Below, piece by piece: positions 45,665-61,485 of a stretch of 64,000 bases of DNA. This DNA comes from Rhodobacterales bacterium HTCC2255 (GTDB lineage Bacteria; Pseudomonadota; Alphaproteobacteria; Rhodobacterales; Rhodobacteraceae): the NCBI GenBank assembly GCA_000153745.1, contig DS022282.1, positions 354,027 to 418,026 of the forward strand, read 5' to 3'. Made by a program: the position numbers and the translations under genes. Numbering within the stretch: position 1 is the first letter of the stretch; every line of letters starts with the position of its first letter. The notes under the pieces are model-generated. The model made no database searches, was not told the DNA's origin, and saw only the letters and a program-made list of their open reading frames with translations.

Positions 45665-46412
45665 ATTTGGACAACTTAATGCAATAGTTTCAGGAACTGG
45701 GAAACAACTAGTTCTTATCCATGGTGTAGGTTTGCGCGCTGAGGCATGGTCTGAACAAACATCTGAACTTAGTAAGCTTCATAAAACTGTTGCGATTGAT
45801 ATTCCAGGCCATGGCGAATGCTCTATTCCTACAGATGATTTTAGCCTAAAAGATTATGCAGAATTAATATCTGCAGCCATTACAACTCCATCAATAATCG
45901 TCGGTCATTCCTTTGGTGCAATGATTGCTTTAGAGTTAGCATTCCGCCATTCAAGAAAAGTAAAATCAGTAATTGCATTGAATGCCATTTTCAAAAGAGA
46001 TGGAATAGCAAAAAAAGCAGTAAAAAATAGATTTAATACTTTATCTAAACAATCGAATTCAGATCCCTCAAGTACTCTCAATCGATGGTTCATGCCTGAA
46101 GAGAAAAAGGCGCGTAAGGTTTGTAAGAATTGGTTAAGTTCAACTGATCCTAGGGGGTATTATAACGCTTATAAAGTATTTTCGAGTGAAGATGGGCCAA
46201 ATGAAAATGATTTAAACAAATTACATTGCCCATCATTATTTATAACTGGGTCAAGAGAACCTAATTCCACTCCAGAAATGACAAAAAATATGTATAAGCT
46301 CACTCATACTGGAAAAATGGAGATATTTGATAATGCTGCGCATATGCTTCCTATGACACATGCAAAGCACCTTAATAAAACCTTAAAAAAATTCATAATG
46401 GATAATGCTTGA
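45636..46412 (+). CDS. Alpha/beta hydrolase
   Basis: A 258-residue alpha/beta-fold hydrolase with the oxyanion strand LVLIHGVGLRAEAW (25-38), the nucleophile in GHSFGAM (S92), an acid near LFITGSREPNS and the histidine in AAHMLPM near 240. It starts inside the end of the DUF1185 gene (29-bp overlap) and its TGA shares a base with the next ATG, so all three are tightly coupled. By analogy to RutD-type enzymes it could cleave a carbamate, ester or ring-opened product, which is inference. Confidence 0.85.
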   Translation: MTWTTQPRSKFGQLNAIVSGTGKQLVLIHGVGLRAEAWSEQTSELSKLHKTVAIDIPGHGECSIPTDDFSLKDYAELISAAITTPSIIVGHSFGAMIALELAFRHSRKVKSVIALNAIFKRDGIAKKAVKNRFNTLSKQSNSDPSSTLNRWFMPEEKKARKVCKNWLSSTDPRGYYNAYKVFSSEDGPNENDLNKLHCPSLFITGSREPNSTPEMTKNMYKLTHTGKMEIFDNAAHMLPMTHAKHLNKTLKKFIMDNA

Positions 46413-47335
46413 TGGATAAAATAGATCCCATTTTACTTAGAGATGCATTTGGTAAGTTTATGACTGGCGTGACAGTTGTAACAGCCGTCAGAAGTGATGG
46501 AAAATATGTTGGCTTCACAGCAAACTCTTTTACGTCGGTATCTTTAGATCCACCAATGCTTCTTGTTTGTCCTGGTAAATTCTTATCAAGCTACAAAACG
46601 TTTTCAAACTGCAGCCACTTTTCAGTAAATATACTTTCTGAAGGCCAAGAGAAAATATCAAATATTTTTGCAACGTCAGATGATGACAGATTTACAAAAG
46701 TACCACATAAACTTGATTTAAACGGAGTGCCGACAATAGATGGCGCCACTGTGCAATTTTCTTGTACAGTGGATAATATTATTCCGACAGGAGATCATTG
46801 TGTATTGATCGGACAAGTTGATGACTTAAAATTATCAAATGAACCTGGTCTTGGATATGTTGGAGGCCAATATTTTAGTTTAGGATTAGAGCGAGCAGCA
46901 TTTAAGGACACTAGAAGCAATGCTATTTGTGGAGCAATTATCGAAGATAAAGATAACATAATCTTAGTGAAAACACCCGATGGCCTTCAGCCGCCTCAAT
47001 GCAAAGCAATAGACAGAAGCAATCAGATAAAAGATTTAAATGATACAATAATTAATTACGGTATTTCAGCAAAGTTGGGTCAAGCCTATTCAGTTTTTGA
47101 AGGAATTAAATCTAGAGAACATAGCACCTATTTCTTGGCAACTGGAAATATCAAAGACACTTCATCAGATGTTATCTCAATCCCAATATCTCAATTAAAT
47201 CAACAAAAATTTACGTCGCCAGCTATATCAAGAATGATGTCTCGATTTGCATTAGAAGCACAATCAAGAAATTTTTCTCTATACTTAGGCGATGTAGAAA
47301 AAGGTGCTATTCACGGCATTCAAGAAAGGAAATAA
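46412..47335 (+). CDS. Flavin reductase fused to a degenerate Nudix-like domain
   Basis: Residues 1-160 are a flavin:NAD(P)H reductase-like domain of the HpaC/RutF type (LRDAFGKFMTGVTVVTA, GFTANSFTSVSLDPPMLLVC, GDHCVLIGQVDDL, YVGGQYFSL), which would supply reduced flavin to the monooxygenase encoded next. Residues about 168-307 resemble a Nudix fold (ICGAIIEDKDNIILVKTPDG) but lack the GX5EX7REUXEEXGU catalytic box. The start is ATG 46412, one base inside the previous stop; a TTG at 46409 is less likely. It is followed after 1 bp by the luciferase-like gene. Confidence 0.82.
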   Translation: MDKIDPILLRDAFGKFMTGVTVVTAVRSDGKYVGFTANSFTSVSLDPPMLLVCPGKFLSSYKTFSNCSHFSVNILSEGQEKISNIFATSDDDRFTKVPHKLDLNGVPTIDGATVQFSCTVDNIIPTGDHCVLIGQVDDLKLSNEPGLGYVGGQYFSLGLERAAFKDTRSNAICGAIIEDKDNIILVKTPDGLQPPQCKAIDRSNQIKDLNDTIINYGISAKLGQAYSVFEGIKSREHSTYFLATGNIKDTSSDVISIPISQLNQQKFTSPAISRMMSRFALEAQSRNFSLYLGDVEKGAIHGIQERK

Positions 47336-47336
47336 A

Positions 47337-48371
47337 ATGGATTTTTCTCTTTTTGCACACATGGAAAGAATTACACCTGAACAAGATCATTGTGATTTAC
47401 GCGAAGAACTTATTGAATTGGCAAAAATCGCTGATCAAGGTGGGATGAGATCTCTTTGGACAGGTGAACACCACGGTATGGAGTTCACAATAGCACCAAA
47501 TCCCTTTATCAGTTTGGTTGACTTAGGTTATAATACAAAAAATTTACGCTTAGGCACAGGAACTATTATAGCACCATTTTGGCATCCAATAAAACTAGCC
47601 GGAGAAGCTGCTGCTACTGATTTAATAACCGGTGGAAGAATAGAATTAGGTATAGCCAGAGGTGCATATTCTTATGAATATGAACGACTAGTACCAGGCA
47701 TGGATGCGTGGGAAGCAGGTCAAAAAATGAGAGAAAGTATACCACTATTACGCAAATTATGGGAAGGTGATTGTGAACATAATGGAGAATATTATAATTT
47801 TCCAAAAACTTCTACTGCACCAAAACCACTTCAGAAAAACGGGCCGCCAATATGGATAGCTGCAAGAGATATTAGTAGTCATAAGTTTGGAGTTGAAAAT
47901 GGATTTAATATCCAAGTTACCCCACTCTGGATGGGTTTAGAAGAAATAGAGGACCTTATGCGGAAATTTAATGAAGCCTGTGCAAGTTATAATGGTAAAA
48001 AGCCAAAAATAATGTTGTTACACCATACATATGTGGGCTTAGATCAAGATGATGTAGATGAAGCAGCTAAAGAGCTTTCAAAATTTTATTGTTATTTTGG
48101 CGCATGGTTTCAAAATAAAAGACCAGTACAACAAGGGCAGATTAAAGCTTTATCAAAGGAAGAATTGGCGGCAAATAAATTAATGTCACCAGAGAATATG
48201 CAACGTGATTTGACAATAGGAACATCTAAGTCAGTAATTGAACAAATTAAAAGATATGAGAAACTTGGATACGATGAATATGCATTTTGGATAGATAGTG
48301 GAATGAGCTTTAAAAGAAAGAAAGAGTCTTTAGAACGGTTTATAAATGAAGTCATGCCGGCATTTAATTAA
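47337..48371 (+). CDS. Luciferase-like (LLM) flavin-dependent monooxygenase
   Basis: A 344-residue TIM-barrel oxidoreductase of the bacterial luciferase family, which uses reduced FMN and oxygen. Signs: ADQGGMRSLWTGEHHG near 30-45, LRLGTGTIIAPFWHPIKLA near 69-87, GRIELGIARGAYSYEYE, and GPPIWIAARD. The reductase partner is the preceding gene. Start at ATG 47337, with AAAGGA ahead; an earlier in-frame start lies inside the reductase gene. The family oxidises aldehydes, sulfonates, amides and heterocycles; the substrate here is unknown. Confidence 0.88.
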   Translation: MDFSLFAHMERITPEQDHCDLREELIELAKIADQGGMRSLWTGEHHGMEFTIAPNPFISLVDLGYNTKNLRLGTGTIIAPFWHPIKLAGEAAATDLITGGRIELGIARGAYSYEYERLVPGMDAWEAGQKMRESIPLLRKLWEGDCEHNGEYYNFPKTSTAPKPLQKNGPPIWIAARDISSHKFGVENGFNIQVTPLWMGLEEIEDLMRKFNEACASYNGKKPKIMLLHHTYVGLDQDDVDEAAKELSKFYCYFGAWFQNKRPVQQGQIKALSKEELAANKLMSPENMQRDLTIGTSKSVIEQIKRYEKLGYDEYAFWIDSGMSFKRKKESLERFINEVMPAFN

Positions 48372-48379
48372 GGATTAAC

Positions 48380-49858
48380 ATGGAAAACAAACCACATTAT
48401 CAACTATATATAGATGGCGATTGGGTTAGTGGAAGCACTCAACAATCGATGGATTCAGAAAATCCTGCAACTGGAGAAATTTGGGCAACTTTTGATTGTG
48501 CTTCAAAAAGCGATGTTAACCGCGCAGTAAGCGCAGCACGTAGAGCTTTAAGTGATACGTCTTGGCGCGATATTTCACAAACACAGCGTGGAAAACTACT
48601 TCATAAATTAGCAGATCTAATCGAGGAGAATGCAGAACTTATTGGGCAAGTTGAAACTAATGACAGTGGGAAACTTTTAGCTGAAACATCAACCCAAACG
48701 AGTTATGTAGCTGATTATTATCGTTATTATGCAGGGTTAGCAGATAAAATTGAAGGATCAGTTTTACCAATCGACAAACCAAATATGCACGTTTTTACTC
48801 GACGTGAACCAATTGGCGTTGTTGTAGCAGTTGTTCCATGGAATGCTCAAATGTTTTTAACTGCAACAAAACTTGGACCAGCATTAGCAGCAGGTTGTAC
48901 TGTTATCCTTAAAGCGTCAGAAATTGCACCTGCGCCAATGTTTGAATTCGCAAAATTAATACAGCAAGCTGGTTTTCCACCTGGTGTAATATCAGTTATT
49001 ACTGGTGATGCTGAAAATTGCTCAATTCCATTAACAAGCCACCCAGAAATTGATCGTATAGCTTTTACAGGAGGGCCAGATACTGCTCGACATGTAATTA
49101 AAAACTCTTCAGAGAACTTTGCCGTCACTTCTTTAGAATTAGGTGGAAAATCTCCAATTATTGTATTTGATGATGCAAACTTAGAAAGCGCAGCAAACGG
49201 ATTAATTGCTGGTAATTTTGGCGCTTCTGGACAGAGTTGTGTCGCTGGGTCTCGCGGACTAATACATAAAAATATTTTCAATGATTTAATCAAAATAATC
49301 ATTGCAAAGTCAAAAAACATTAAAGTTGGAAATCCATTAGATGCAGAAACTAATATTGGGCCTCTTTGCACTAAAGCTCAGATAAATAATATTTCTAAAA
49401 CCCTGGCTGTATCTAAATCTCAAGGTGCGAAAATTCATTTTGGTGGGAGCCCATTAAAAAGAGCAGGCAACTATATGGAGCCAACCTTGGTTGAATGTAC
49501 AAATGCAAATACAGAAACACTAAAAGTGGAAATGTTTGGTCCTATAATGTCGCTTTTACCTTTTGAATCTGAAGAAGAAGCAATTGCATTAGCAAATGAC
49601 TCAAAGTTTGGATTAGGATCTGGAATATTTACAGAAAATATAGCACGTGCACATCGCGTATCTTCAAAAATTAAAGCAGGAATATGTTGGATAAATACAT
49701 ATCGAGCTATTTCCCCAATTGCACCATTTGGCGGATACAATCAATCTGGCTACGGCCGTGAAGCAGGGTTGGATTCAATCTACGATTACACACGGACTAA
49801 AACTACATGGATAAATACATCGGATCAACCAATGCAAAACCCTTTTATAATGAGATAA
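48380..49858 (+). CDS. NAD(P)-dependent aldehyde dehydrogenase
   Basis: A 492-residue aldehyde dehydrogenase that oxidises an aldehyde to the acid. Catalytic residues are intact: N155 in VVPWNAQM, E253 in LELGGKSP and the nucleophile C287 in GASGQSCVAGSR. The C-terminal PFGGYNQSGYGREAG is standard. It is the last gene of the DUF1185 operon, 8 bp after the LLM gene, and so probably removes the aldehyde formed upstream. Followed by a hairpin shared with the convergent TPP enzyme gene. Confidence 0.92.
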   Translation: MENKPHYQLYIDGDWVSGSTQQSMDSENPATGEIWATFDCASKSDVNRAVSAARRALSDTSWRDISQTQRGKLLHKLADLIEENAELIGQVETNDSGKLLAETSTQTSYVADYYRYYAGLADKIEGSVLPIDKPNMHVFTRREPIGVVVAVVPWNAQMFLTATKLGPALAAGCTVILKASEIAPAPMFEFAKLIQQAGFPPGVISVITGDAENCSIPLTSHPEIDRIAFTGGPDTARHVIKNSSENFAVTSLELGGKSPIIVFDDANLESAANGLIAGNFGASGQSCVAGSRGLIHKNIFNDLIKIIIAKSKNIKVGNPLDAETNIGPLCTKAQINNISKTLAVSKSQGAKIHFGGSPLKRAGNYMEPTLVECTNANTETLKVEMFGPIMSLLPFESEEEAIALANDSKFGLGSGIFTENIARAHRVSSKIKAGICWINTYRAISPIAPFGGYNQSGYGREAGLDSIYDYTRTKTTWINTSDQPMQNPFIMR

Positions 49859-49898: not shown

Positions 49899-51671
49899 TT
49901 AAGTTGATACATGACTGACATTTTTGTCCGGAGAATATATGTCCAGAATATTCCAGTGGCCAGTTGTTGGGGTAGGATTGTTTATCATTGCTACATCAAT
50001 AACTGTTGGTTTATTAGATGCAATAGCGCCTCTCAATGATGGCAATAATTCAGATGCACTATTAATTTTTATACCTACTGCACCATATGCCTCTGCGATT
50101 TTAGAATAATCTGGCCCATTTTCTGGTTCTTCAGAAGTTCCTGGGAAGGTAGTGCCATAGGTAATGCCATAATGTGCTTTTTGCAAACCAGCGATTGTTC
50201 CAAAGGCATTATTATTCATTATCAACCAAATTATTCCCAGATTTAATTCAACTGCTGTTGCAAGCATTGCAGGATTTTGTCCAAATCCACCATCACCGAC
50301 TAAGCTAAGCACCACTTTATCCGGGCTTGCTAGCTTTGCTCCTATTGCTGCTGGAGGCCCGAACCCCATTGTAGCAAAACCTCCAGGAGTTAAAATAGAA
50401 CCTGGGGTTAGTATGTTAAACTGCTGGCCAACACCATTTTTATTCCATCCAACATCAGTTGTAATAATAGCATCATCAGGTAATGCATTTCTTGTGTCAG
50501 CAAGGATCCTTTCGGGCATCATTGGAAATAAATTTGAGGTAGCCATTTTAGTATTTTTTTCAATAAATGCATTTTTAAATTTTGCAATTTTTTCACGTAA
50601 CTTTGGCCTATCAAAACCTTCAGGGTATAGTTCTTTTGCTACACGCAACAAAACACACAATGCAGACTTTGCATCAGCTATTACACCAATATCTGTTGGA
50701 TAATTCCTGCCTATTTCTGATGGTTCTATATCTATATGAATAACTTTTGAGCCAGGAATATTAAATGTATATCCAGGGTACCAACTTGAACAATCAGCTT
50801 CTTTGAAGCGAGTACCAATAGCTAGAATATAATCCGCATTTAAACATGCATCATTTGTTAATTTTGTGCCCCAAAATCCTGTCATGCCAAGAAGATATGG
50901 ATGTTCATCACTAATTGCGCCTTTACCCATCAAAGAATGTGCTACAGGCAAACCCATATAATCTATAAATTCTCGAAGTTCATCAGAAGCGCCTGATAAC
51001 AAAATACCTCCACCCACATAACTAACCGGATTTTTAGAATTTGCTAATTTAGTTATAATGTCACGCGCAGTATGATCATCAATAGATGGTTTTATTATTG
51101 ATCGCATATTATCAAGAATACGATCAAATGTGTCTGATGATATAACTTCACTAAAAATATCCATAGGCACATTAACTAAAACTGGTCCAGGTTGGCCACT
51201 TTCAGCTAAATGAAATGCCTTTTCTAAGATCTCAGCTATAAGATCTGCCCTATCAACTCTCCATGCGCGCTTCACAAAAGGTTTATATATTTCATATTGT
51301 GATGCATCAGAATGCAAGTTCACTTCTTGATGTGGATGTTTGCCATAGTAATGGGTAGGAATATCACCAGCAATGACTACCATTGGGATACAATCTAATG
51401 CAGCATTTGCAACTCCTGTTGCACAATTAGTGAGGCCTGGTGATAAATGAGAGAGTACAACTGAAGCTTTTCCAGTAACTCGCGCATAAGCGTCTGCAGC
51501 ATGGCTTGCAATTTGTTCGTGCCTAACTGTTATGAAATCAATAGGGCTTTTCGACAATGCTGCCAAGACAGCTATATTTGTATGACCACATAGCCCAAAA
51601 ACATGTTTAACTTCACGTCGCTGGAGAAAGTCTATAAGATGTTCAGCTACTGTTTTTATATTATCACTCAT
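49899..51671 (-). CDS. Thiamine-pyrophosphate enzyme (acetolactate-synthase-like 2-oxoacid decarboxylase/ligase)
   Basis: A 590-residue three-domain TPP enzyme: the pyrimidine domain with the activating glutamate E52 in VRHEQIASHAADA, a central domain, and the PP domain with GDGGFGQ (459-465) closing with NNN (486-488). Length and order match acetolactate synthase, but there is no regulatory-subunit gene and the N-terminus (VFGLCGHTNIAVLAA) differs from both IlvB and sulfoacetaldehyde acetyltransferase. It is coupled to the acylating aldehyde dehydrogenase by a TAATG overlap, which suits a 2-oxoacid decarboxylase feeding an aldehyde to it (inference). Confidence 0.82.
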   Translation of the reverse strand: MSDNIKTVAEHLIDFLQRREVKHVFGLCGHTNIAVLAALSKSPIDFITVRHEQIASHAADAYARVTGKASVVLSHLSPGLTNCATGVANAALDCIPMVVIAGDIPTHYYGKHPHQEVNLHSDASQYEIYKPFVKRAWRVDRADLIAEILEKAFHLAESGQPGPVLVNVPMDIFSEVISSDTFDRILDNMRSIIKPSIDDHTARDIITKLANSKNPVSYVGGGILLSGASDELREFIDYMGLPVAHSLMGKGAISDEHPYLLGMTGFWGTKLTNDACLNADYILAIGTRFKEADCSSWYPGYTFNIPGSKVIHIDIEPSEIGRNYPTDIGVIADAKSALCVLLRVAKELYPEGFDRPKLREKIAKFKNAFIEKNTKMATSNLFPMMPERILADTRNALPDDAIITTDVGWNKNGVGQQFNILTPGSILTPGGFATMGFGPPAAIGAKLASPDKVVLSLVGDGGFGQNPAMLATAVELNLGIIWLIMNNNAFGTIAGLQKAHYGITYGTTFPGTSEEPENGPDYSKIAEAYGAVGIKINSASELLPSLRGAIASNKPTVIDVAMINNPTPTTGHWNILDIYSPDKNVSHVST

Positions 51672-53080
51672 TATGCAACCTCATTTCCATAAAATTCTCC
51701 AAATAAGTCTTGTTCTGATGGTTTATCCTCTGTGATTGGACGACTTACCCAAGTATAATTCATCATATGTTTCATTGTTACATTTTCATTCGTAATATTA
51801 CCGCCCCATATTCCGCAACCAAGGCTTGATGTCATTGGCATCCCATTCGTGTAAGACCCAGCATTTGATTTAGATTGGGGCTGCCTAACCATCATTCTAC
51901 TGACAGGGGCTACACGAGCTAAGGCATCAATATTATCATCATCATGGCTATATATGCCACACGAGTGTCCTTTTCCTGCGGTATTATAAATCTTTTTTAC
52001 TATTTTTAGAGCATCATCAAAATTTTCAAACCAATAAAGTGCCATCAGAGTAGTAAGTTTTTCTTTACTAAATTTATGCTCTGGGCCAATTTTTCCATGA
52101 TTTTCAACCATTAGGAATTTTCTATCATCTGGTATATTAAAACCAGCGGCATTAGCAATTTGTTGAGGCGGACAAGCTATGGTCGAGAATGTACGATTTT
52201 CATTTTCATCCCACATTGCAGCTTCTAATTTTTTTTTCTCATCTTCATTACAAAGATAACCACCCTCTAATTGCAAAGCTCTTAACATCTCTTTATAAAT
52301 TCTTTGTTGAATAATTATATTTCCATCTGCAGAACAACCAGAGCCAAAATCACTCGTCTTAGACATTCGAGTATTCTTTGCAGCAATTTCAATATCAGCA
52401 GTTTCATCTATAACAATAGATGAATTTCCAGCACCTACTCCATACGCGGGCCTACCAGATGAATAAGCAGCCTTAACCATTGGCTTACCTCCAGTAGCAA
52501 GTGTTAGATCACATATCTGCATTAAATATTGAGTCAAAGGTATCGAAGGCTTTTGAATTGATTGGAATAAATCTTCAGGCGCACCAACAGCTCTGCATGC
52601 ACTTCTCATTGCTTCAACCATTTTAAATGTTGTTACTGCAGTTCGTGGATGTGGCGAAAAAATTGTCGCATTACGAGTTTTTGCAGAATAAATACCAGTA
52701 ACAGGTGGAGTTAAAGCGGGGTTTGTCATTGGAATTAGTGAAGCGATTACTCCAGCCGGTTTCGCATATTTAACTAAACCTTTTTCTTCATCAACCTCAA
52801 CAATTCCAGTAGAAGGTTGTCTTAGTGCATCTCTTAAGGCGCCGTGTATCTTAAAACGTTTAGCTGGTCGCCCCAAGCGATCCCCTATCCCACTTTCATC
52901 AACACCCATTTGGGCAAGCTTTGTAAATGTTTTCTCATTACTCGAAAACCATCCAATAGCTTGCGCTAATCTATCTAATTCTTGCTGCGAATAATTCTCA
53001 ATCAACGCCATAGCTTTACGCGCACGATTTAGCAAATCGAGCGCATGCTCACGCTCTTGATTAGTAAGCTCTTTGGTCAT
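51671..53080 (-). CDS. CoA-acylating aldehyde dehydrogenase (SauS/SucD-like)
   Basis: A 469-residue aldehyde dehydrogenase of the CoA-acylating branch, which converts aldehyde plus CoA to acyl-CoA. The nucleophile is C249 in SDFGSGCSADGN, and the catalytic glutamate of hydrolytic members is absent, as expected for this branch. GVIASLIPMTNP (110-121) begins the cofactor domain. Sulfoacetaldehyde and succinate-semialdehyde dehydrogenases (acylating) are the known relatives I would compare. It overlaps the TIM-barrel gene by 20 bp upstream and the TPP gene by 1 bp downstream. Confidence 0.82.
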   Translation of the reverse strand: MTKELTNQEREHALDLLNRARKAMALIENYSQQELDRLAQAIGWFSSNEKTFTKLAQMGVDESGIGDRLGRPAKRFKIHGALRDALRQPSTGIVEVDEEKGLVKYAKPAGVIASLIPMTNPALTPPVTGIYSAKTRNATIFSPHPRTAVTTFKMVEAMRSACRAVGAPEDLFQSIQKPSIPLTQYLMQICDLTLATGGKPMVKAAYSSGRPAYGVGAGNSSIVIDETADIEIAAKNTRMSKTSDFGSGCSADGNIIIQQRIYKEMLRALQLEGGYLCNEDEKKKLEAAMWDENENRTFSTIACPPQQIANAAGFNIPDDRKFLMVENHGKIGPEHKFSKEKLTTLMALYWFENFDDALKIVKKIYNTAGKGHSCGIYSHDDDNIDALARVAPVSRMMVRQPQSKSNAGSYTNGMPMTSSLGCGIWGGNITNENVTMKHMMNYTWVSRPITEDKPSEQDLFGEFYGNEVA

Positions 53081-53963
53081 GAAATATACTTTTCCCTTTA
53101 ATATTATTAATATGGTGAGTACGCCTTTGGGATTTCACATGTCCAAAAGTACGCTTAGCATGTTGTAAACATCGTCGAGCATGTTCTTCATATCCAAGTT
53201 CATTAATTCTAGATTGATTTGGTAGCTCTATTGAGTAATCCACAGGAGGCATTCGTTCAATTATCCCCTTAAAATCAATACAACCTTCACTTGGATATAA
53301 TCGCGCATCTCTTGCGAGCTGAATCATTCCCTGTTTAGTATCTGCGATACCCGGTAATGCATCAGATATATGTAGAAAATTTAAAAACTCGCCAGGTACG
53401 TGAAGTAATTCAGCCAAATCTACACGACTTAAATGAAGGTATAATGTATCAACTAAGATACCACCGTTGGGCTGTTTTGCTGCACGAACTATATCCAATG
53501 CTTCATCTAAAGTTCTCAAACGAGAAAAAGATGGGAATTCTAGATCAACACTAAGGCCATATTGATAAGCAATTTCACAAGTCTCCGAAAAACAATCTAA
53601 AATGAAGTTTCTATCAGTACGATCTGTTGTCCATGCACTCATTATCATACGCTTTGCGCCTAATTCACCACCAAGCTCTAAGGCTCTTTCAAAGTTACGT
53701 GGATCACAATCTTCTGTAATACGTGCTAATTCTATATCTAAGACTTTAATGCCTGTAGTTTTTAGAGCAATCTTTGTAGCTGCTATCATTTGATTATCAA
53801 TTGGTGATTGTTTGAATTCTCCAGGGACATTCATAGGTATAAATCGAGGGCTTACTGCATCATAACCAGCGCGGTCGGCAATATATATCAATTCCGGTGT
53901 AGTAGCATTTATCAATGTTAAATGTGCCAAAGAGTACAATGGATCATGAGCAACTTCAGTCAT
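53061..53963 (-). CDS. Sugar-phosphate isomerase/epimerase-family TIM barrel with intact metal site
   Basis: A 300-residue xylose-isomerase-like barrel, the fold of IolE, hydroxypyruvate isomerase and 3-dehydroshikimate dehydratase. A full metal site can be assigned: E142 in DLEFPSF, D172 in ILVDTLYLH, H198 in FLHISD and E246 in YSIELPN. The 30-residue basic tail after residue 268 is unusual. It heads the segment TIM barrel - acylating ALDH - TPP enzyme; a TATGATAT inverted pair lies 58-81 bp ahead. It contrasts with the barrel in the fusion protein of this cluster, which has lost these residues. Reaction unknown. Confidence 0.8.
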   Translation of the reverse strand: MTEVAHDPLYSLAHLTLINATTPELIYIADRAGYDAVSPRFIPMNVPGEFKQSPIDNQMIAATKIALKTTGIKVLDIELARITEDCDPRNFERALELGGELGAKRMIMSAWTTDRTDRNFILDCFSETCEIAYQYGLSVDLEFPSFSRLRTLDEALDIVRAAKQPNGGILVDTLYLHLSRVDLAELLHVPGEFLNFLHISDALPGIADTKQGMIQLARDARLYPSEGCIDFKGIIERMPPVDYSIELPNQSRINELGYEEHARRCLQHAKRTFGHVKSQRRTHHINNIKGKSIFHDQRAY

Positions 53964-54050: not shown

Positions 54051-54851
54051 TTAACTATTCTTAGATATATATTTTGGTAAAAACCTTGTTGGCATCGGGC
54101 CCTTATTTCTTCCACCTTGTTCGATTTGCTCCCAAGCATGCGATAGGATTCCAACACTTCTCGACAAACAAAAAAGCCCTCGAGATAAGGGAGCAGGGAA
54201 TTCTAATTCACAAAATATAACAGCTGTTGCGCCGTCTATATTCATAGCAATATCTTTTTTAATGCTTAAATGAGATTGGATAGCTTCAGCAATATCTGCG
54301 TATTTTCCAGATACAATATTATCTTTTGCAGCTAAACGTACTAATTCCATTAGGCGTGGAGCTCTTGGGTCAATTGGTTTGTGAAATCTATGGCCGTATC
54401 CACTAATAATTTTACCATTCACACTTTTCCATTCACGCAACCCGTCTTCAATAGCAGTATCAAATTTTGCACCATTATCAATTCTTGATGATATCTCATA
54501 AAATAGTTCCGAACATTGCTCTCCGGCGCCACCATGAATGTCCCCTAACATATTGATCCCTGTAGCCATTGCGTTGTTAATCCCGACCCCACATGTTGCA
54601 GCCATTCTAGCTGCAGCTATAGAAGGTGCTTGAGGCCCATGGTCAACTCCAGCTACTAATGCAGCCTCAAATAATGAAGCCTCTTCATTTGTAGGCAATC
54701 CACCTCTTACCATCATCCAAATCATCTGTGGAAATGATACATTTCCTATCAAATTTTCAATTTCATTTCCTCTAAAAGAAATTTTTCCTGGAGACATATC
54801 AATTATTGATGTGCTCCACCAATTTCGTATTTCATCAGCATCGTTTACCAT
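54051..54851 (-). CDS. Citrate-synthase-fold lyase (citryl-CoA lyase-like), short form
   Basis: A 266-residue protein with only the catalytic core of citrate synthase. All three catalytic residues are present: H106 in GDIHGGAG, H154 in GYGHRFHK and D206 in NIDGATA. The short length matches stand-alone citryl-CoA lyase and the C-terminal part of ATP-citrate lyase rather than citrate synthase (about 430). It could cleave or form a carbon-carbon bond using an acyl-CoA made by the acylating dehydrogenase of this cluster (inference). It lies 15 bp after the fusion gene. Confidence 0.8.
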   Translation of the reverse strand: MVNDADEIRNWWSTSIIDMSPGKISFRGNEIENLIGNVSFPQMIWMMVRGGLPTNEEASLFEAALVAGVDHGPQAPSIAAARMAATCGVGINNAMATGINMLGDIHGGAGEQCSELFYEISSRIDNGAKFDTAIEDGLREWKSVNGKIISGYGHRFHKPIDPRAPRLMELVRLAAKDNIVSGKYADIAEAIQSHLSIKKDIAMNIDGATAVIFCELEFPAPLSRGLFCLSRSVGILSHAWEQIEQGGRNKGPMPTRFLPKYISKNS

Positions 54852-54866
54852 GGTATGTTTCCCTTT

Positions 54867-56630
54867 TTAAGCTTGCTGCAATATAGTTTGAGAAGATAAT
54901 CGAACAGATGCATTACGTGCACCATATCCAGAATAGCCATTTTTTCTTTGTACTATTTCAAAAAAGAAACCATCAAATAAATTTTTACTATAAATTTGAA
55001 AATATTCGCTGTTTCCATCTTGGTCATACAAAATATTCTGTTTTTTTAATTGAGCTATGAATGTATCATTTAGGTTAAATTTGTTTTTTGTTTCTTCATA
55101 GTAACCAGATGGAATAGCTAAGCTTTTAAAGCCATTTATTCTCAATAGATTTGCACTTTCAAAAATATCATCAGAAGCAAAAGCTATATGTTGTACACCT
55201 GCTCCAAATTTATCTTCAACAAATAACCCAGCAAATGTATTTAAATCTTCTGATGCATTTAGATTTAAACGCACTTCACCTTCAGGACTTTCAATAGCTT
55301 GGCTTAAAATAATCCCAGAAGGGTCATTAACATTTACTATTGAAGATTTATCCATTTCGAAAGTTGAAATATAATACAGTAACCAATCTTGCATTTCATC
55401 AAATTTCATGGTTTGTGCGATATGGTCGATACGTCGCAAACCAATAGGTTGTATAGCATCAACATCATTTGTCCTGTCAAATTCGATGTCCCATACCCTA
55501 TGCAAATCAGAGTTTTCATCGATAAAATGCACAATACTACCACCTACCCCTCGAACAGCCGGAATATTTAATTCGCCTAAGCCCACATTTTGAATAAATG
55601 ATTTTGACCCGAGAGATTTTGCTCTGGAAACCGTTTCATCTGCATTTTGCACTCGAAGTCCCATGTCACAAACAATAGCTCCATGTGCTTCAAATGCGTC
55701 ACGAGCATACCCATGTTTCTCTTTGTTTACGACAATATTGATTGCACCCTGCCGCCAAAGAACAACGTCTTTACTAAGATGTATTCGCTCTTTACGAAAT
55801 GACATGCTTAATAACATTTTTGTTAATTCATTTGATGCATTTTCATCTACTGCAAATTCTATAAATTCAATGCCAGTCGCTCGAACCCTGGAAGGAATTA
55901 ATGGTATGTCAAACTTTGCTGATGGTTCTGAAATTGAAACATCATTCAAAATATTCAACAAGGATCTATATGCACTTGCCGTACTTGGACAGTTTTTTTC
56001 TTTTATAGAAATGCACCAAGTACCATCATACCCAAATCGACTTAATATTTTTATAAAAGCTTCCAAATTTAGATCGCCAAGCTTTGGTAACAAATGTCCA
56101 TTTACTCCATCAGCAAGTTGGATATAGAATAATTTTGAAATCTTTAAATCACGTAATCTTGCGGGTCGTGATCCATCTTCCAAAACATTTGCACTATTTA
56201 AAGCAACACCAAGATTTGGATGATTGATTTTATGTATATACTGAATTGTTGCAAACTCACATTCACGAGTTGGAAGTAAAGCAACTTTCAAATCACCAAT
56301 CAAATCAAGATCTGGTATAACTATTTGTTTAGGGTCAGATATATTTAAAATTAGAATAGGTGAATTTATAGAAATTGAAAATTTTGCTGCTACTAGAATA
56401 TCTTTTTTTGAATATACTTTATTTTGAAAATTAAATGCTGCTATTCTTAAATTTGCACCTGCAATTATGCCCAAAATTTCTTCAGTTTTATTTTGAAATT
56501 GTAATATATCAAAACTACAAATTTCAACAAAATTGAAATTGGACTCTGAAATTAATTTCAATTTTTCTTCAAAATTACCTTTAACAGTATTACTAGATAT
56601 ACAGAGCACAAGACTAGCCTTGATAACCAA
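54867..56630 (-). CDS. TIM-barrel/HPPD-like dioxygenase fusion with degenerate barrel
   Basis: A 587-residue fusion like QuiC1 of Pseudomonas: an N-terminal 3-dehydroshikimate-dehydratase-type barrel (1-230) and a C-terminal hydroxyphenylpyruvate-dioxygenase-like part (250-587). By alignment from memory, the barrel's metal ligands are gone: the first Glu reads L119, the Asp reads N145, its nearby His reads N148, and the last Glu reads S208; only Q171 remains. The dioxygenase iron ligands are intact: H403 (RIDHIAQ), H481 (VQHIAFA) and E558 (FFFEIVQR). So the barrel is probably inactive while the oxygenase works. It overlaps the TRAP M gene by 17 bp. Confidence 0.83.
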   Translation of the reverse strand: MVIKASLVLCISSNTVKGNFEEKLKLISESNFNFVEICSFDILQFQNKTEEILGIIAGANLRIAAFNFQNKVYSKKDILVAAKFSISINSPILILNISDPKQIVIPDLDLIGDLKVALLPTRECEFATIQYIHKINHPNLGVALNSANVLEDGSRPARLRDLKISKLFYIQLADGVNGHLLPKLGDLNLEAFIKILSRFGYDGTWCISIKEKNCPSTASAYRSLLNILNDVSISEPSAKFDIPLIPSRVRATGIEFIEFAVDENASNELTKMLLSMSFRKERIHLSKDVVLWRQGAINIVVNKEKHGYARDAFEAHGAIVCDMGLRVQNADETVSRAKSLGSKSFIQNVGLGELNIPAVRGVGGSIVHFIDENSDLHRVWDIEFDRTNDVDAIQPIGLRRIDHIAQTMKFDEMQDWLLYYISTFEMDKSSIVNVNDPSGIILSQAIESPEGEVRLNLNASEDLNTFAGLFVEDKFGAGVQHIAFASDDIFESANLLRINGFKSLAIPSGYYEETKNKFNLNDTFIAQLKKQNILYDQDGNSEYFQIYSKNLFDGFFFEIVQRKNGYSGYGARNASVRLSSQTILQQA

Positions 56631-57909
56631 ATACTCTAGGTAACCAAAGTATCAAATCTGGAACTAACAACATGATTAAAAGTGCAGCTATTAAAATTAC
56701 CAGAAATGCCCAAATTTCTGATATAATCTCTCTTAAAGGAATATCTGTAACTGCATTTATTACAAATAATAGTATACCATAAGGTGGGGTTATTAATCCA
56801 ATCATTGAGTTTACCACAACAAGAACACCAAAATGTACTAGATCAATACCTAAAACTTCACATGTTGGTATAAAAAGTGGAACTATTACTAATATAATTG
56901 TTGTTGCATCCAGAATGCAGCCTAACGCTAAGATCAATAAATTCACAACAATTAAAAATACAATTGGGTTTACATCAGTACCTTCTAAAAGCATCGCAAT
57001 AGATTGTGGTATTTGCTCAGATATAACTATGAAGTTTAATATAAAAGCACCGCCAATAACAATGCCGACAGATGCAGATGAACGTGCACTTTCTACAAAA
57101 ACATTGAACAGTGTCTTAAATGATAAGGCTTTATAAAACAGTCCAGCAAGCAATAATGCATAAAATGCGGCTATTGCTGCAGCTTCAGTTGGTGTCGTCA
57201 CACCACCATAAATACCATATAGTAATATTACAGGCATTAGTAGTGCTGGGAAAGCATTTGCTGTTTTTCTTGGAAGCTCTCTTAAAGGAATTGGATCTTC
57301 CATTGCAAAGCCTCGTTTGCCCGCCATGTAATAATTCATAATCATTAGGACAAGACCCATAATTAATCCAGGTAGAATACCCGCTAAAAAGAGTGAACCA
57401 ATTGATGCTTTTGAAACTAAAGCATATAAAACCATTGGAATAGATGGTGGAATTATAGGCCCAATTGTTGCTGATGCAGCAGTAATAGCTGCTGCATAGC
57501 CGCGCGTATACCTGTTATCTTTAGTCATCATTTCAATGATTATTTTTCCAATTCCAGCGGCATCTGCAACAGCTGAGCCAGACATTCCAGAAAAAATTAA
57601 AGAAGCCACAACATTTACATGCCCAAGCCCACCTTTGAAACGTCCTACTGCAGCTACGCAAAAATTTAATAATCTATCAGTTATAGTTCCAGCATTCATA
57701 ATATTTGCTGCAACAATAAATAATGGCACTGCAATGAGGATAGTACTCAAATAAAACCCTTGTAAAATTTTCTCACCAGCTAAAGCAACGTCAAGACCTG
57801 AAAACCCAAGGTATACTACAGAAGCCAACATTATTGAGTAGCCAATTGGAGTTCCTATTCCAGCCAATAGGAATAGTGTCACCAAACATGAGGCAAGTTC
57901 AAAACTCAC
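56614..57909 (-). CDS. TRAP transporter large permease (DctM)
   Basis: Large membrane subunit of a tripartite ATP-independent periplasmic transporter, driven by a sodium or proton gradient. The 431-residue protein has about 12 hydrophobic helices and the DctM signatures GMSGSAVADAAGIGKI near 107-122, ATIGPIIPPSIPMVLYA, and NSMIGLITPPYGILLFV near 364-380. It overlaps the DctQ gene by 4 bp and the fusion gene by 17 bp, tying uptake directly to catabolism. Confidence 0.94.
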   Translation of the reverse strand: MSFELASCLVTLFLLAGIGTPIGYSIMLASVVYLGFSGLDVALAGEKILQGFYLSTILIAVPLFIVAANIMNAGTITDRLLNFCVAAVGRFKGGLGHVNVVASLIFSGMSGSAVADAAGIGKIIIEMMTKDNRYTRGYAAAITAASATIGPIIPPSIPMVLYALVSKASIGSLFLAGILPGLIMGLVLMIMNYYMAGKRGFAMEDPIPLRELPRKTANAFPALLMPVILLYGIYGGVTTPTEAAAIAAFYALLLAGLFYKALSFKTLFNVFVESARSSASVGIVIGGAFILNFIVISEQIPQSIAMLLEGTDVNPIVFLIVVNLLILALGCILDATTIILVIVPLFIPTCEVLGIDLVHFGVLVVVNSMIGLITPPYGILLFVINAVTDIPLREIISEIWAFLVILIAALLIMLLVPDLILWLPRVFGYQG

Positions 57910-58451
57910 GGTACATTCCTCTTTTCCGAACTTTGCTCTTCAAGAGTAATTTCTAGTTCTGTTTTTGGAGGTCCATTTTTAAAAATATTTCTAATCATCC
58001 AAGCGTATCTTGCGCCCACAGCAATCATAAAAATAGCATATATAGAAAAAACATCTCTCATAGGAATTTTTGCACCTGTAAAAGGATTTTTTACAGTGGA
58101 AGTTTTACGTATTTTCATCCAATCAATATAATCCCATGTGGGTAAGTAAATATAAATCATTCCAATTACTATTGAAAATGCACTTATAATTGCCATAATC
58201 TTTCTAATTCTTAATGGCATAGCTAAGTAAAGAATATCAAACTTCACATGATCTGACTCTCTTACAACAAAAGCACAAGAAAAGAATATCAACCAAACCC
58301 ACAAAATTCCGATGAGCTCCAGTGTCCAACCAGCTGGAGTAAAAAAATATCTTAATAATATTTGTAAAAGAAAGGTTAAAAAAATTGCTGCCAGTAAACC
58401 GCCAGCAATTGCTTTTGTAACTTGAGAGAACCCTTTAATGAGTTTACGCAT
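57906..58451 (-). CDS. TRAP transporter small permease (DctQ)
   Basis: Small membrane subunit of the TRAP system, 181 residues with four helices. The DctQ-type stretch RYFFTPAGWTLELIGILWVWLIFFSCAFVVRESDHVKFDIL-like region (about 34-74) is clear, with the conserved E and the RESDHV motif. A 4-bp ATGA overlap joins it to DctM, and 27 bp separate it from DctP. The C-terminal 25 residues are charged and cytoplasmic. Confidence 0.9.
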   Translation of the reverse strand: MRKLIKGFSQVTKAIAGGLLAAIFLTFLLQILLRYFFTPAGWTLELIGILWVWLIFFSCAFVVRESDHVKFDILYLAMPLRIRKIMAIISAFSIVIGMIYIYLPTWDYIDWMKIRKTSTVKNPFTGAKIPMRDVFSIYAIFMIAVGARYAWMIRNIFKNGPPKTELEITLEEQSSEKRNVP

Positions 58452-58478: not shown

Positions 58479-59489
58479 TTATTTACCCAATGCGTTTACT
58501 TTCTCAAGAACTCCTGCGGGCCATGTTGCAGCAAATTCACTATCTAAGTACATTGACTGCACTTGATTGCGGAAAGCAGCTGTATCTGGCTCATAAACTT
58601 CCATTCCCTGCTCTTCTAAAAATGCAACTAAACTACCTTCTAACTCTAGTTGAATCTTACGACCTGATGCAGCGGCAGCATCAGCAGCAGCTTGAACCGC
58701 AACTTGTTGCTCTGCTGTCATTGAGTTGAATGTTTCTGCACTCATAGCGATGTAGTTTAAGTCAACTAGGTGAGATGTCAAAACAATTTGATTAGTTACT
58801 TCATAGAATTTTTTATCTACAACAGTAGGTAATGGATTATCTTGTCCATCTACTGCACCTGTTGAAAGTGCTGTGTATACTTCAGAAAATGCCATAGGAG
58901 TAGGTGCTGCACCAAGTGCTTTACCTAAAAACTGCCATGCATCTGTACCAGGCATACGTAAATTAACACCAGCTAAATCTGAAGGCTTATTTACTGTAAG
59001 CTCATCTTTTGTCTGTCTCAAGTTTACTTGACGTCTACCCAAATACATTACTGATAAAAGTTTAACACCTAGTTCATTTTCAACTTTTGCTTTAAACGGG
59101 TCCATTAGAGGGTCATTAAAAACTGCTACTTGGTGATCAGCATCTTGGTGAACATATCCAGCTGTAAAAATTGAGAATTCTGGGAAGAATTGTGCTAATT
59201 CTTGAGCGGATGTTATAGACATTTCTAAATTACCACGGCTTATAGCATCAAGTTCTGTTCCCTGAGCAAAAATTGTACTATTATAGCTTGGTTCAAAGCT
59301 TGCAAAGGTTCCAACCAATGGAGCAAATACATTTGCCATTGCTATAGATCTTTGATCTGTTTCAGTTCCTGATGTTGCCATACGTAATTGAACTTTAGAA
59401 TGCCCATCAGCCAAAGCTGGCATACCAGTTGATACGCTTGCAGCCATTAAAGCCGCTACAGCAATACGACGTGTATAGTTAACTTTCAT
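58479..59489 (-). CDS. TRAP transporter substrate-binding protein (DctP)
   Basis: Periplasmic binding protein of the TRAP system. A signal peptide (1-27, ending PALA) is followed by a 309-residue mature protein. The carboxylate-binding arginine sits in VNLRMPGTDAWQFLG near 175-189, followed by ALGAAPTPMAFSEVYTALSTGAVDGQDNPLP, the DctP family core. This points to an organic acid ligand with a carboxylate. It is first of the five-gene transport and catabolic transcript, with two TATGATAT elements in the 102-bp gap ahead. Confidence 0.93.
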   Translation of the reverse strand: MKVNYTRRIAVAALMAASVSTGMPALADGHSKVQLRMATSGTETDQRSIAMANVFAPLVGTFASFEPSYNSTIFAQGTELDAISRGNLEMSITSAQELAQFFPEFSIFTAGYVHQDADHQVAVFNDPLMDPFKAKVENELGVKLLSVMYLGRRQVNLRQTKDELTVNKPSDLAGVNLRMPGTDAWQFLGKALGAAPTPMAFSEVYTALSTGAVDGQDNPLPTVVDKKFYEVTNQIVLTSHLVDLNYIAMSAETFNSMTAEQQVAVQAAADAAAASGRKIQLELEGSLVAFLEEQGMEVYEPDTAAFRNQVQSMYLDSEFAATWPAGVLEKVNALGK

Positions 59490-59543: not shown

Positions 59544-59593
59544 ATATCATAGCTTTATTAAAATACAATATATTTTGTAAAATATATGATATT
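59544..59593. promoter_or_regulatory. TATGATAT elements upstream of the TRAP operon
   Basis: ATATCATA at 59544-59551 and its inverse TATGATAT at 59585-59592 flank a third dyad, TACAA-N6-TTGTA at 59564-59579. The 13-mer at 59581-59593 is repeated exactly at 60726-60738. Candidate GntR operators in front of the dctP gene. Confidence 0.45.
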
Positions 59594-60665
59594 ATTGCGC
59601 TGCAACTCCATTTGTTGAAATTTTTGAAGGATTAACAACTTCAATTAAACTTTGTGTTTGAGCAGCTTTTTGAATTGCTTCGATTACTAAAAGAGTTTTT
59701 AAACCATCAAGACCAGTAACTAATGCAGCTGTCTCACCACGTATTACATCAGCAAAATTAGTTATTTGATTAATTAATGGATCTGAAGCATCTCTAGGTG
59801 TAATTGTTCCAGAAATTGGGTTCCACCAATTTCTTTCTCCTTTGTGTGACCAAACTTTTAAATCTGGAACTGACAGAGAACCTTCTGAACCACCTATCAT
59901 ATAACAAGACTCAGAAGTCATTGGATATATTGGATATTCTCGAGAAGTTAATTCCCAACTCCATGGTGACACAATACTATCAGACACAGTAACAGTTCCA
60001 ATAACTCCATTTTCAAACTTTAAAACTGCAGCAGCTAAATCTTCGTTATCAAAGCCTCTAATTGAAGGCGCCATTTGAGCTTGAACAGAGATGATTTCTC
60101 CACAAAAATATCTCATAAGGTCAATATCATGCACTAAATTAACTGAAATAGGACCTGCACCTTTTTGCGTTCTCCATGGCGCAATATCAAAATATTCATC
60201 TGGCTTATAAAACCAACATGTTGCTTGTAGAGCTCTAATATTACCAATTTCCCCACTCACTATTAATTCCTTTGCCTTTTGGATCAATGGATTATGCCGT
60301 CTGTGATGCCCCACAAGCAATGGGACTGATGCATGCTCGGCTGCATCAGTTAAAATTTTTGCTTGAATAGCAGACGTGGCTAATGGTTTTTCAACTAATA
60401 CAGGGCAAGATTTTTCAATACATTCCAAACCTTGTGATACATGTAACGGTGTTGGAGTAGACAATATTACTCCATCAGGAGATATAGCTGCAAACATTTC
60501 GTTCAAATTTGAGAAGCAGGGTATATCTAGGGAGTTTATGTCTTCCGTAGGGTTTGGTTCTACAATCGCAACTAAATTGACATCTTTTTGCTTTGAAATC
60601 GCATTAATGTGTCTTTGCCCTACCAACCCAGCACCAACAACAGCAAGCTTAATAATATTTGTCAT
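59592..60665 (-). CDS. Gfo/Idh/MocA-family NAD(P) dehydrogenase
   Basis: A 357-residue oxidoreductase. The N-terminal Rossmann fold has VVGAGLVGQRH (9-19) and the family EKP motif at 92-94 (VEKPLA); the C-terminal domain carries VHDIDLMRYFCGE near 184-196. Members oxidise hydroxyl groups of inositols, sugars and quinate/shikimate-like rings. It lies 102 bp before dctP on the same strand and is divergent from the GntR gene, so it probably performs the first oxidation of the imported substrate (inference). Confidence 0.88.
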   Translation of the reverse strand: MTNIIKLAVVGAGLVGQRHINAISKQKDVNLVAIVEPNPTEDINSLDIPCFSNLNEMFAAISPDGVILSTPTPLHVSQGLECIEKSCPVLVEKPLATSAIQAKILTDAAEHASVPLLVGHHRRHNPLIQKAKELIVSGEIGNIRALQATCWFYKPDEYFDIAPWRTQKGAGPISVNLVHDIDLMRYFCGEIISVQAQMAPSIRGFDNEDLAAAVLKFENGVIGTVTVSDSIVSPWSWELTSREYPIYPMTSESCYMIGGSEGSLSVPDLKVWSHKGERNWWNPISGTITPRDASDPLINQITNFADVIRGETAALVTGLDGLKTLLVIEAIQKAAQTQSLIEVVNPSKISTNGVAAQ

Positions 60666-60780: not shown

Positions 60781-60825
60781 TAATTGTATATTAATAAAAA
60801 TATTAACATGTTATTTGAGAAATTT

Positions 60826-61485
60826 ATGACAAAAATTATTAATACTGTAGGCTCCAGTACATATGAACACATCAAAAAAGATATTATTTATGGGAACTTA
60901 GCCCCAGGTAGTAAGTTGAAACTTGATGGGCTAAAAAAACAGTACGACGCAAGCGTATCAACTTTGCGAGAAACATTAAATCGATTATCAAGTGATGGTT
61001 TCGTTGAAGCTGCTGAACAACGTGGATTCTTTGTTCGTTCTGTATCTCGTGAAGACTTAGCTGAAATTGCAAATTTGAGAATACTTTTAGAATGCTCGGC
61101 CCTTAAAACCTCAATTGAAAATGGTAACGCTGACTGGGAAGGTAATTTAGTAGCCGCTCATCACAAATTAAAATTGATTGAACAAAAAATGTTATCTGGT
61201 GATTATTCTCAAAAAGAAACCTGGAAAAGATATGATTGGGAATTTCACAAAACATCGATTGAAGCGTGTAATTCTCAAAACTTAATGTCACTTCATGCAA
61301 TAATATTTGACAAATATTTACGGTACCAAATGCTTGTAATAACAGATAGAGGAAAAGACGCTGCATTAGAACACCAACAAATATTTGATGCTGCACTCTC
61401 ACGCAATTCATCAAAGGCAATAGAAGCTCTTGAAATACACATAAGAAAAGGCCTAGAGCACACTTTAGCTAACATGAAAATTTAA
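60826..61485 (+). CDS. GntR-family regulator, FCD subgroup
   Basis: A 219-residue transcription factor with an N-terminal winged helix (about 11-70, IIYGNLAPGSKLKLDGL, STLRETLNRLSSDGFV) and a C-terminal FCD effector domain. The FCD metal/ligand residues are in place: D137, H141, H183 and H205. It is divergent from the TRAP/catabolic cluster and is the obvious regulator, usually a repressor released by the substrate. I choose ATG 60826 after a GAGAAA; ATG 60784 and 60808 are alternatives with no ribosome site. Confidence 0.9.
   Translation: MTKIINTVGSSTYEHIKKDIIYGNLAPGSKLKLDGLKKQYDASVSTLRETLNRLSSDGFVEAAEQRGFFVRSVSREDLAEIANLRILLECSALKTSIENGNADWEGNLVAAHHKLKLIEQKMLSGDYSQKETWKRYDWEFHKTSIEACNSQNLMSLHAIIFDKYLRYQMLVITDRGKDAALEHQQIFDAALSRNSSKAIEALEIHIRKGLEHTLANMKI

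Follow-up and report, generated by a model that had tools for sequence, protein, structure and literature searches.

A QuiC-type fusion protein with a degenerate dehydratase barrel and a conserved HPPD-like half in a putative catabolic operon of Rhodobacterales bacterium HTCC2255

QuiC-type enzymes join a 3-dehydroshikimate dehydratase barrel to a second half that resembles HPPD, and a locus in Rhodobacterales bacterium HTCC2255 raises the question of which half is at work when the dehydratase residues are gone. The locus lies in a stretch of 64,000 nucleotides (contig DS022282.1, positions 354,027 to 418,026; hereafter the window), where an open reading frame at window positions 54867-56630 of the minus strand encodes a fusion protein of 587 amino acids from a TTG start. 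A first-pass annotation of this DNA had proposed that the barrel is a pseudoenzyme or scaffold and that the oxygenase half is the working part, possibly acting on a 2-oxoacid. The analysis described here leads us to think it likely that the protein descends from QuiC, that its barrel is a dead but folded scaffold, and that its HPPD-like half works as an Fe(II) oxygenase in a rerouted operon of the quinate/shikimate type.

Active-site residues of the fusion protein

Pfam recognized in the fusion a partial isomerase-type barrel and an HPPD N-terminal domain, and the order of the domains, an N-terminal sugar-isomerase-like barrel and a C-terminal HPPD-like domain, is that of QuiC and QsuB. The nearest NCBIfam model was QuiC (NF042435, 312 bits with a cut-off of 1200), a cut-off that two fusions with intact sites did not reach either (663 and 639 bits), and the score against the HPPD model TIGR01263 was 210.9 bits, below the curated cut-off of 277. 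Among solved structures the best phmmer match was Pseudomonas putida QuiC1 (5hmq), which covered residues 11-581 with an E-value of 1.8e-80. We class the protein as a variant of the QuiC-type fusion that is neither a dehydratase nor HPPD.

Active-site residues were placed with phmmer against 5hmq and with MAFFT against QuiC-type fusions, and the residues of QsuB from Corynebacterium glutamicum were put on the alignment by motif. In the available excerpts of PMC7442255, the QsuB active site comprises Arg64, Glu134, Asp165, His168, Gln191, Ser206, Arg210, and Glu239. The corresponding positions of the fusion in the MAFFT alignment are N70, L119, N145, N148, Q171, a gap, a gap, and S208, respectively, so that the dehydratase metal site and the catalytic His are missing and Q171 is the sole survivor. 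The 2-His-1-Glu site of the oxygenase half (H403, H481, and E558) is intact in its residues. All eight residues cited in the first-pass annotation (L119, N145, N148, Q171, S208, H403, H481, and E558) were confirmed, and the loss of metal ligands that it had described was borne out by both alignments, which place L119, N145, N148, and S208 on QuiC residues; the equivalents of Arg64, Ser206, and Arg210, which it had not mentioned, are also gone. That the barrel is a pseudoenzyme as regards dehydroshikimate dehydration is well supported by these alignments. The features of the fusion gene are as follows:

55887..56630, minus strand: barrel half (residues 1-248 with linker), a triosephosphate isomerase (TIM) barrel predicted to lack the dehydratase metal site
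56274..56276, minus strand: codon of L119 (QsuB Glu134, metal ligand), by alignment
56196..56198, minus strand: codon of N145 (QsuB Asp165, metal ligand), by alignment
56007..56009, minus strand: codon of S208 (QsuB Glu239, metal ligand), by alignment
54867..55886, minus strand: HPPD-like oxygenase half (residues 249-587) with His403, His481, and Glu558 intact, by Pfam, NCBIfam, alignments, and Foldseek

Distribution of the degenerate barrel and constraint on the two halves

A query of the genome collection with the fusion as a single protein returned two loci only, and whole-genome searches were therefore used instead. The bait was the thiamine diphosphate (ThDP) enzyme encoded in the same operon (described below), which recovered 20 of 394 genomes of the family at an E-value limit of 1e-200, 5 of 398 in a sample of the phylum at 1e-180, and 6 of 385 in a sample of the class at 1e-150; these samples overlap and their limits differ. 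The citryl-coenzyme A (CoA) lyase family, tried by itself as an operon marker, proved poor (31 of 385 genomes), and the ThDP protein was better. A plasmid search gave 303 records, all below 60% identity, two of which were examined.

Fusions were grouped by their neighbor and not by their residues. The clade set comprised 23 fusions beside a citryl-CoA-lyase-like gene (in six cases a dehydrogenase gene intervenes), and the ordinary set comprised 11 fusions: nine from a search of relatives and those of genomes G528 and G282. The search of relatives had shown 11 ordinary-type places, of which the nine that had a locus were used; of the two fusion-like places in G528, the second was left out. The truncated fusion of genome G603 was dropped from the identity counts, and that of G044, with a partial site, was kept out of both groups.

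The residues corresponding to Glu134, Asp165, and Glu239 are gone in 23/23 lyase-linked fusions and all three are present in 11/11 ordinary ones, which indicates that the loss of the barrel site is beyond chance. The His/His/Glu triad of the oxygenase half is kept in 35/35 aligned fusions, G044 included. In a tree of the oxygenase half the 23 clade fusions formed one branch (support 100/100), and in a tree that also held eight HPPD sequences the 22 members then known did so with 95/93. The family alignment proposed as a check on the first-pass annotation thus found the same positions lost across a whole clade, and the simplest reading of these sequences is that the barrel site was lost once. 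The G044 fusion retains both Glu residues, with Asn in place of Asp and His in place of Gln. The oddest barrel is that of G370 (L074:6897-8693), in which Asp is replaced by Gln and His by Arg and the Arg64 position is gapped; its oxygenase triad is intact.

Constraint on the two halves was inverted in the clade. Mean pairwise identity among 22 clade members was 40.0% for the barrel half and 62.5% for the oxygenase half, the latter being more alike in 231/231 pairs; among the 11 ordinary fusions the values were 72.2% and 54.0%, and the barrel was more alike in 55/55 pairs. In the three closest pairs the ratio of nonsynonymous to synonymous substitutions (dN/dS) was 0.26-0.30 for the barrel half and 0.10-0.125 for the oxygenase half; the other five of the eight pairs, which are more distant, showed saturation of synonymous sites and were set aside, two of their values not being computable. 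By these measures the barrel half is relaxed yet under purifying selection. An AlphaFold2 model built from a 30-row family alignment had a mean predicted local distance difference test score of 88.3, with eight barrel strands recognizable by eye. A Foldseek search with this model ranked the six 5hmq chains at the top (template modeling score, normalized by query length, up to 0.86), followed by HPPD 1cjx; in this comparison, of the kind suggested with the first-pass annotation, the model matched the QuiC1 fold over its full length. Considering the inverted constraint, the dN/dS values, and the folded model together, the barrel has the look of a folded scaffold, and what selection protects seems to be the oxygenase half. 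Compared with QuiC1 and QsuB, the fusion is alike in domain order, in its full-length fold, and in an HPPD-like half with the same triad; it differs in lacking the dehydratase Arg, Glu, Asp, His, Ser, Arg, and Glu and in the inversion of conservation.

A confidently predicted barrel fold with dN/dS well below 1 in the three closest pairs might also be expected if the barrel had gained some other, metal-independent catalytic function. However, clade members differ at the former ligand positions: the Glu134 position is occupied by L, Q, R, M, S, I, or T and the Glu239 position by S, A, or G, and 9/23 members lack the Ser206 and Arg210 positions altogether. Only the change of Asp165 is near constant (Asn in 22/23, Gln in 1/23). 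We therefore regard a new barrel function as very improbable.

The oxygenase pocket was compared with eight HPPD sequences. In addition to the triad, the clade has S443, N458, Q480, Q545, and N573 in common with them, which we take to be pocket-lining positions of HPPD; each is kept in 23/23 clade members, and ordinary alphaproteobacterial QuiC proteins share them. The fusion thus resembles HPPD (1cjx, TIGR01263) in fold, triad, and pocket Ser, Asn, two Gln, and Asn. Unlike in HPPD, a pocket Gln and a C-terminal Phe are replaced, the TIGR01263 score (211 bits) falls short of 277, the HPPD sequences form a separate branch (100/100), and the Pro that precedes the pocket Asn is Asn456 in the clade. 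Position 456 is Asn in 22/23 clade members (Ala in G370), Thr in 10/11 ordinary QuiC, and Pro in 8/8 HPPD. This pattern is compatible with an active oxygenase having a substrate of its own.

Alternatively, both halves could be non-enzymatic, the fusion serving a structural or regulatory purpose, perhaps in partnership with the second barrel protein of the operon, and the triad being kept only for iron-dependent stability. A stabilizing role has indeed been proposed for the HPPD-like half of QsuB, as stated in the available excerpts of PMC7442255 and PMC9324987. Yet the triad and each of the five pocket residues are kept in 23/23 clade members and the oxygenase half is the more constrained one, and a stabilizer of a dead barrel would hardly need a preserved triad and pocket, which makes this explanation improbable.

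The operon and the quinate/shikimate link

The fusion gene lies in an operon with the order MocA1, P, Q, and M genes of a tripartite ATP-independent periplasmic (TRAP) transporter, fusion, lyase, second barrel, acylating aldehyde dehydrogenase, and ThDP enzyme, with a divergent GntR gene. Gaps or overlaps between the genes are at most 102 bases. The genes around the fusion are:

60784..61485, plus strand: GntR/FCD regulator, divergent (family match; in 21/26 related loci)
59592..60665, minus strand: Gfo/Idh/MocA dehydrogenase MocA1 (family match; close homolog in 21/26 related loci)
58479..59489, minus strand: TRAP solute-binding protein DctP (Pfam, NCBIfam)
57906..58451, minus strand: TRAP small permease (38% identical to the annotated small permease of Paracoccaceae bacterium La 6)
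56614..57909, minus strand: TRAP large permease, overlapping the fusion gene by 17 bases (61% identical to the annotated La 6 TRAP permease)
54051..54851, minus strand: citryl-CoA-lyase-like protein with the citrate synthase C-terminal fold (NF004864, 412 bits, cut-off 261)
53061..53963, minus strand: separate second barrel protein (E142, D172, and E246 kept in 25/25, the window and 24 loci)
51671..53080, minus strand: acylating aldehyde dehydrogenase (SauS-like, 425 bits, cut-off 600; Cys249 invariant)
49899..51671, minus strand: ThDP enzyme, acetolactate-synthase-like (family and structure matches)

The operon, which the first-pass annotation had not described any more than the second barrel or the lack of protocatechuate genes, was compared across 26 related loci of 25 genomes, a count that excludes the window. 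Some of these loci run into the end of a contig, and the gene set of G312 is split over two contigs (L048 and L068). The fusion gene was present in 24 of these loci, the lyase gene in 23, the second barrel, aldehyde dehydrogenase, and ThDP genes in 25 each, and MocA1, GntR, and each TRAP gene in 21. The fusion co-occurs with the ThDP gene in 25/26 genomes. Optional genes encode a QsuD-like dehydrogenase, directly after the fusion (6/26 loci), an HpaI-like aldolase (7/26), and a protein of about 218 amino acids (9/26), which where listed lies mostly between two dehydrogenase genes. The latter protein (e.g., L060:9415-10071) accompanies extra Gfo/Idh/MocA genes, its L060 copy has no Pfam or NCBIfam match, and the module is also present in G259, where the fusion is absent.

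In the second barrel protein E142 and D172 align with the Glu and Asp of 5hmq, and E246 was placed by hand; the folds closest to this protein are those of IolI, a putative sugar isomerase, QuiC1, and others including IolE. The presence in trans of a barrel with intact residues is a point in favor of the oxygenase being the working part of the fusion. For the lyase-like protein the best solved-structure match was citryl-CoA lyase 6hxp. MocA1 scored best with the model of inositol 2-dehydrogenase (IolG), at 132 bits and under the cut-off of 355. Its assignment as a LigC/PmdC-type dehydrogenase was dropped, PmdC 9azo ranking fifth with 64 bits against 104 for the best match.

Other arrangements of the lyase family were seen. 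Twenty lyase-type regions, those of G033 and G022 coming from the search of relatives and the others from the lyase-family search, included at least six with the operon, at least one with TRAP genes and the lyase, and at least seven with a CaiB-like gene before the lyase; six were unclassified. Lyase relatives in L039, L042, L045, L046, L051, L055, and L056 directly follow a CaiB-type CoA-transferase-like gene, as judged by eye, an arrangement in which this lyase family is put to another use. A hydroxymethylglutaryl-CoA-lyase-like gene of G044 (L073:14751-15662) adjoins the second barrel gene near the fusion with the half-lost site, and there is no citryl-CoA-lyase-like gene in the locus, which is a possible intermediate. 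Beside the operon, a convergent cluster of five genes occupies 45065-49858 on the plus strand of the window. It encodes a 199-amino-acid protein that matches no NCBIfam model at 1e-20, together with a PcaD-like hydrolase, an HsaB/HpaC-like flavin reductase, a luciferase-like monooxygenase, and a betaine-aldehyde-dehydrogenase-like protein, with every match below its cut-off. In L035 all five genes adjoin the operon, in L038, where the region is cut, three do, and in L036 none does.

Several neighborhoods connect the operon with quinate and shikimate. The one QsuD-like protein searched (L061) matched C. glutamicum quinate/shikimate dehydrogenase 3jyo with 193 bits, equalled by 2nlo (labeled shikimate dehydrogenase), the next match having 119; by NCBIfam it reached 303 bits with the shikimate dehydrogenase subfamily (cut-off 235) and 204 with the quinate/shikimate model (cut-off 515). 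In G282, homologs of GntR and MocA1 (60% and 59% identical to those of the operon, respectively) adjoin an AroE-family gene and a QuiC gene with an intact barrel. In Paracoccaceae bacterium La 6, a quinate/shikimate dehydrogenase gene and TRAP genes precede an intact QuiC, the TRAP set directly, and the large permease of the window is 61% identical to that of La 6 as opposed to 34% for another large permease in G033. The window operon has the transporter and the fusion of this arrangement, and the dehydrogenase of the QsuD type occurs in the six related loci mentioned above. A similar row is found on plasmid NZ_CP081129 of Sulfitobacter sp. W002, where a gene annotated as shikimate dehydrogenase stands with three TRAP genes and a fusion of the QuiC type. 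There, unlike in the window, the QuiC barrel is intact and is followed by PcaC, PcaH, PcaG, a 3-keto-5-aminohexanoate cleavage protein, PcaD, PcaB, and AroQ. The window operon, with its nine genes, contains none of these and differs from QuiC1 and QsuB systems in carrying the lyase, aldehyde dehydrogenase, and ThDP set. None of the 26 related loci holds PcaG, PcaH, or PcaB, and AroQ was found in one, on the opposite strand. The window genome has no match to PF00775 or to LigB (PF02900) and no second HPPD-like place, and it is one of 8/23 genomes with neither an intradiol nor a LigB-type dioxygenase. The gene neighborhood points to a quinate/shikimate-type ring compound as the substrate class. 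The 2-oxoacid suggested earlier is no more than a candidate substrate: the pocket residues common with HPPD are kept, but other HPPD pocket positions are changed and the neighborhood points elsewhere.

Candidate chemistry and significance

A scheme consistent with these genes would begin with the import of a C7 ring acid by the TRAP transporter and the oxidation of ring hydroxyls by MocA1 and, in some strains, also by the QsuD-like dehydrogenase. The oxygenase half would then cleave or otherwise oxidize an oxidized C7 ring intermediate, and the ThDP enzyme, the acylating aldehyde dehydrogenase, and the citryl-CoA-lyase-like protein would convert the product to acetyl-CoA plus an oxoacid without passing through protocatechuate. 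The chemistry that we favor, though as less likely than not, is ring cleavage of a doubly oxidized intermediate toward 4-carboxy-4-hydroxy-2-oxoadipate followed by a citryl-CoA split. Thus 3,5-didehydroquinate, a cyclic acireductone, would be cleaved between C4 and C5 to 4-carboxy-4-hydroxy-2-oxoadipate, which the ThDP enzyme would decarboxylate to citryl semialdehyde; this would be converted to citryl-CoA and then to acetyl-CoA and oxaloacetate, a chemistry in which the gene products act as their names suggest. The HpaI-type aldolase could split the same oxoadipate. If shikimate were the start, the doubly oxidized ring would be gallate and a hydration step would be required. Taken as a whole, a new aerobic quinate/shikimate route that bypasses protocatechuate, with HPPD-fold ring cleavage of doubly oxidized quinate or gallate and a true citryl-CoA lyase, is a doubtful proposal.

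The trio of a Gfo/Idh/MocA dehydrogenase, a barrel protein, and a ThDP enzyme in the window also recalls inositol catabolism (IolG, IolE, and IolD), in which IolE acts on inosose and IolD hydrolyzes the ring. An oxygen-free, non-aromatizing ring opening can be drawn accordingly: quinate would be oxidized to 3-dehydroquinate, which the second barrel would dehydrate to a 1,2-diketone as IolE does; ring hydrolysis by the ThDP enzyme, in the manner of IolD or cyclohexane-1,2-dione hydrolase, would follow, the acylating dehydrogenase would form homocitryl-CoA, and the lyase would release acetyl-CoA and 2-oxoglutarate. The fusion would then be an accessory for a side product or another entry substrate. 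This scheme employs every core gene and accounts for the G259 core, which has no fusion, and the absence of AroQ from 25/26 loci, the best MocA1 match to inositol 2-dehydrogenase (below its cut-off, 132 of 355 bits), and the resemblance of the second barrel to the IolI, QuiC, and IolE folds speak for it. However, of 26 genomes with the ThDP gene 25 also have the fusion, whose oxygenase half is strongly conserved, and the match of the ThDP protein to cyclohexane-1,2-dione hydrolase (2pgn) falls well short of its best one (174 versus 262 bits). In addition, neither the barrel nor the ThDP protein of the window has an Iol model as its top match, and the operon adds the lyase, an acylating dehydrogenase of another type, and the oxygenase. 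We consider the oxygen-free scheme unlikely.

A number of observations weigh against a working oxygenase in a rerouted operon of the quinate/shikimate type. A quinate dehydrogenase-like gene is missing from the window operon, and the window genome has one Shikimate_dh_N match. Intradiol and/or LigB-type dioxygenases are carried elsewhere by 15/23 genomes. The Sulfitobacter quinate operon encodes TRAP proteins that are 28% and 39% identical to those of the window, no closer than unrelated ones. The TTG start of the fusion has no ribosome site that is clear by eye, and the gene overlaps TRAP M by 17 bases; translation of the two may be coupled. In G259 (one contig, 94% complete) the operon core occurs without the fusion, which means that the core can do without the oxygenase. 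In G528 the barrel, aldehyde dehydrogenase, and ThDP genes adjoin a fusion whose barrel is intact, and the link between core and dead barrel is therefore not a strict one. The ThDP enzyme matches acetolactate synthases best (up to 262 bits; 2pgn, 174 bits) and therefore no single reaction is singled out; 2pgn was absent among the matches listed (60 of 76) for a search with an N-terminal fragment. The HPPD pocket Gln and the C-terminal Phe, which presumably serve the aromatic-ring pocket of HPPD, are replaced in the clade and in ordinary QuiC alike. As to published work, the available excerpts report no measured activity for a C-terminal domain of this family; those of PMC7442255 state that protocatechuate was unchanged by QsuB in vitro, in an assay with Mg and no added iron, and those of PMC9324987 propose that the HPPD-like half stabilizes the enzyme. 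PMC8264583 offers a guess, not a measurement, that the darkening of cultures with the P. putida 3-dehydroshikimate dehydratase could be due to HPPD-like activity.

With these points included, a pseudoenzyme barrel joined to a working oxygenase, as the first-pass annotation had it, agrees with the sequence, the constraint, and the folded model, its functional side resting on sequence. We infer the lack of barrel activity, the binding of iron, the use of O2, the substrate, and the order of the steps. In the literature searched, which covered few subscription journals and included PMC7442255, PMC9324987, PMC8264583, and PMC6581684 as excerpts, we found no dead-barrel fusion, no quinate/homocitryl-CoA link, no didehydroquinate dioxygenase, and no description of this catabolic operon.

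Altogether, these results point to this catabolic operon in Rhodobacteraceae and some other Alphaproteobacteria, and they warn that the label dehydratase is wrong for the fusions of this clade. The dead-barrel clade offers a natural way to learn the role of the unexplained second half of QuiC-type enzymes: because the dehydratase residues are gone, the other half is under stronger selection, the operon is defined, and there is a candidate substrate class, the question becomes directly testable. If the aerobic ring-cleavage route is true, the C-terminal domain of QuiC-type enzymes would have an activity assigned to it, and a new class of ring-cleaving dioxygenase would be defined.

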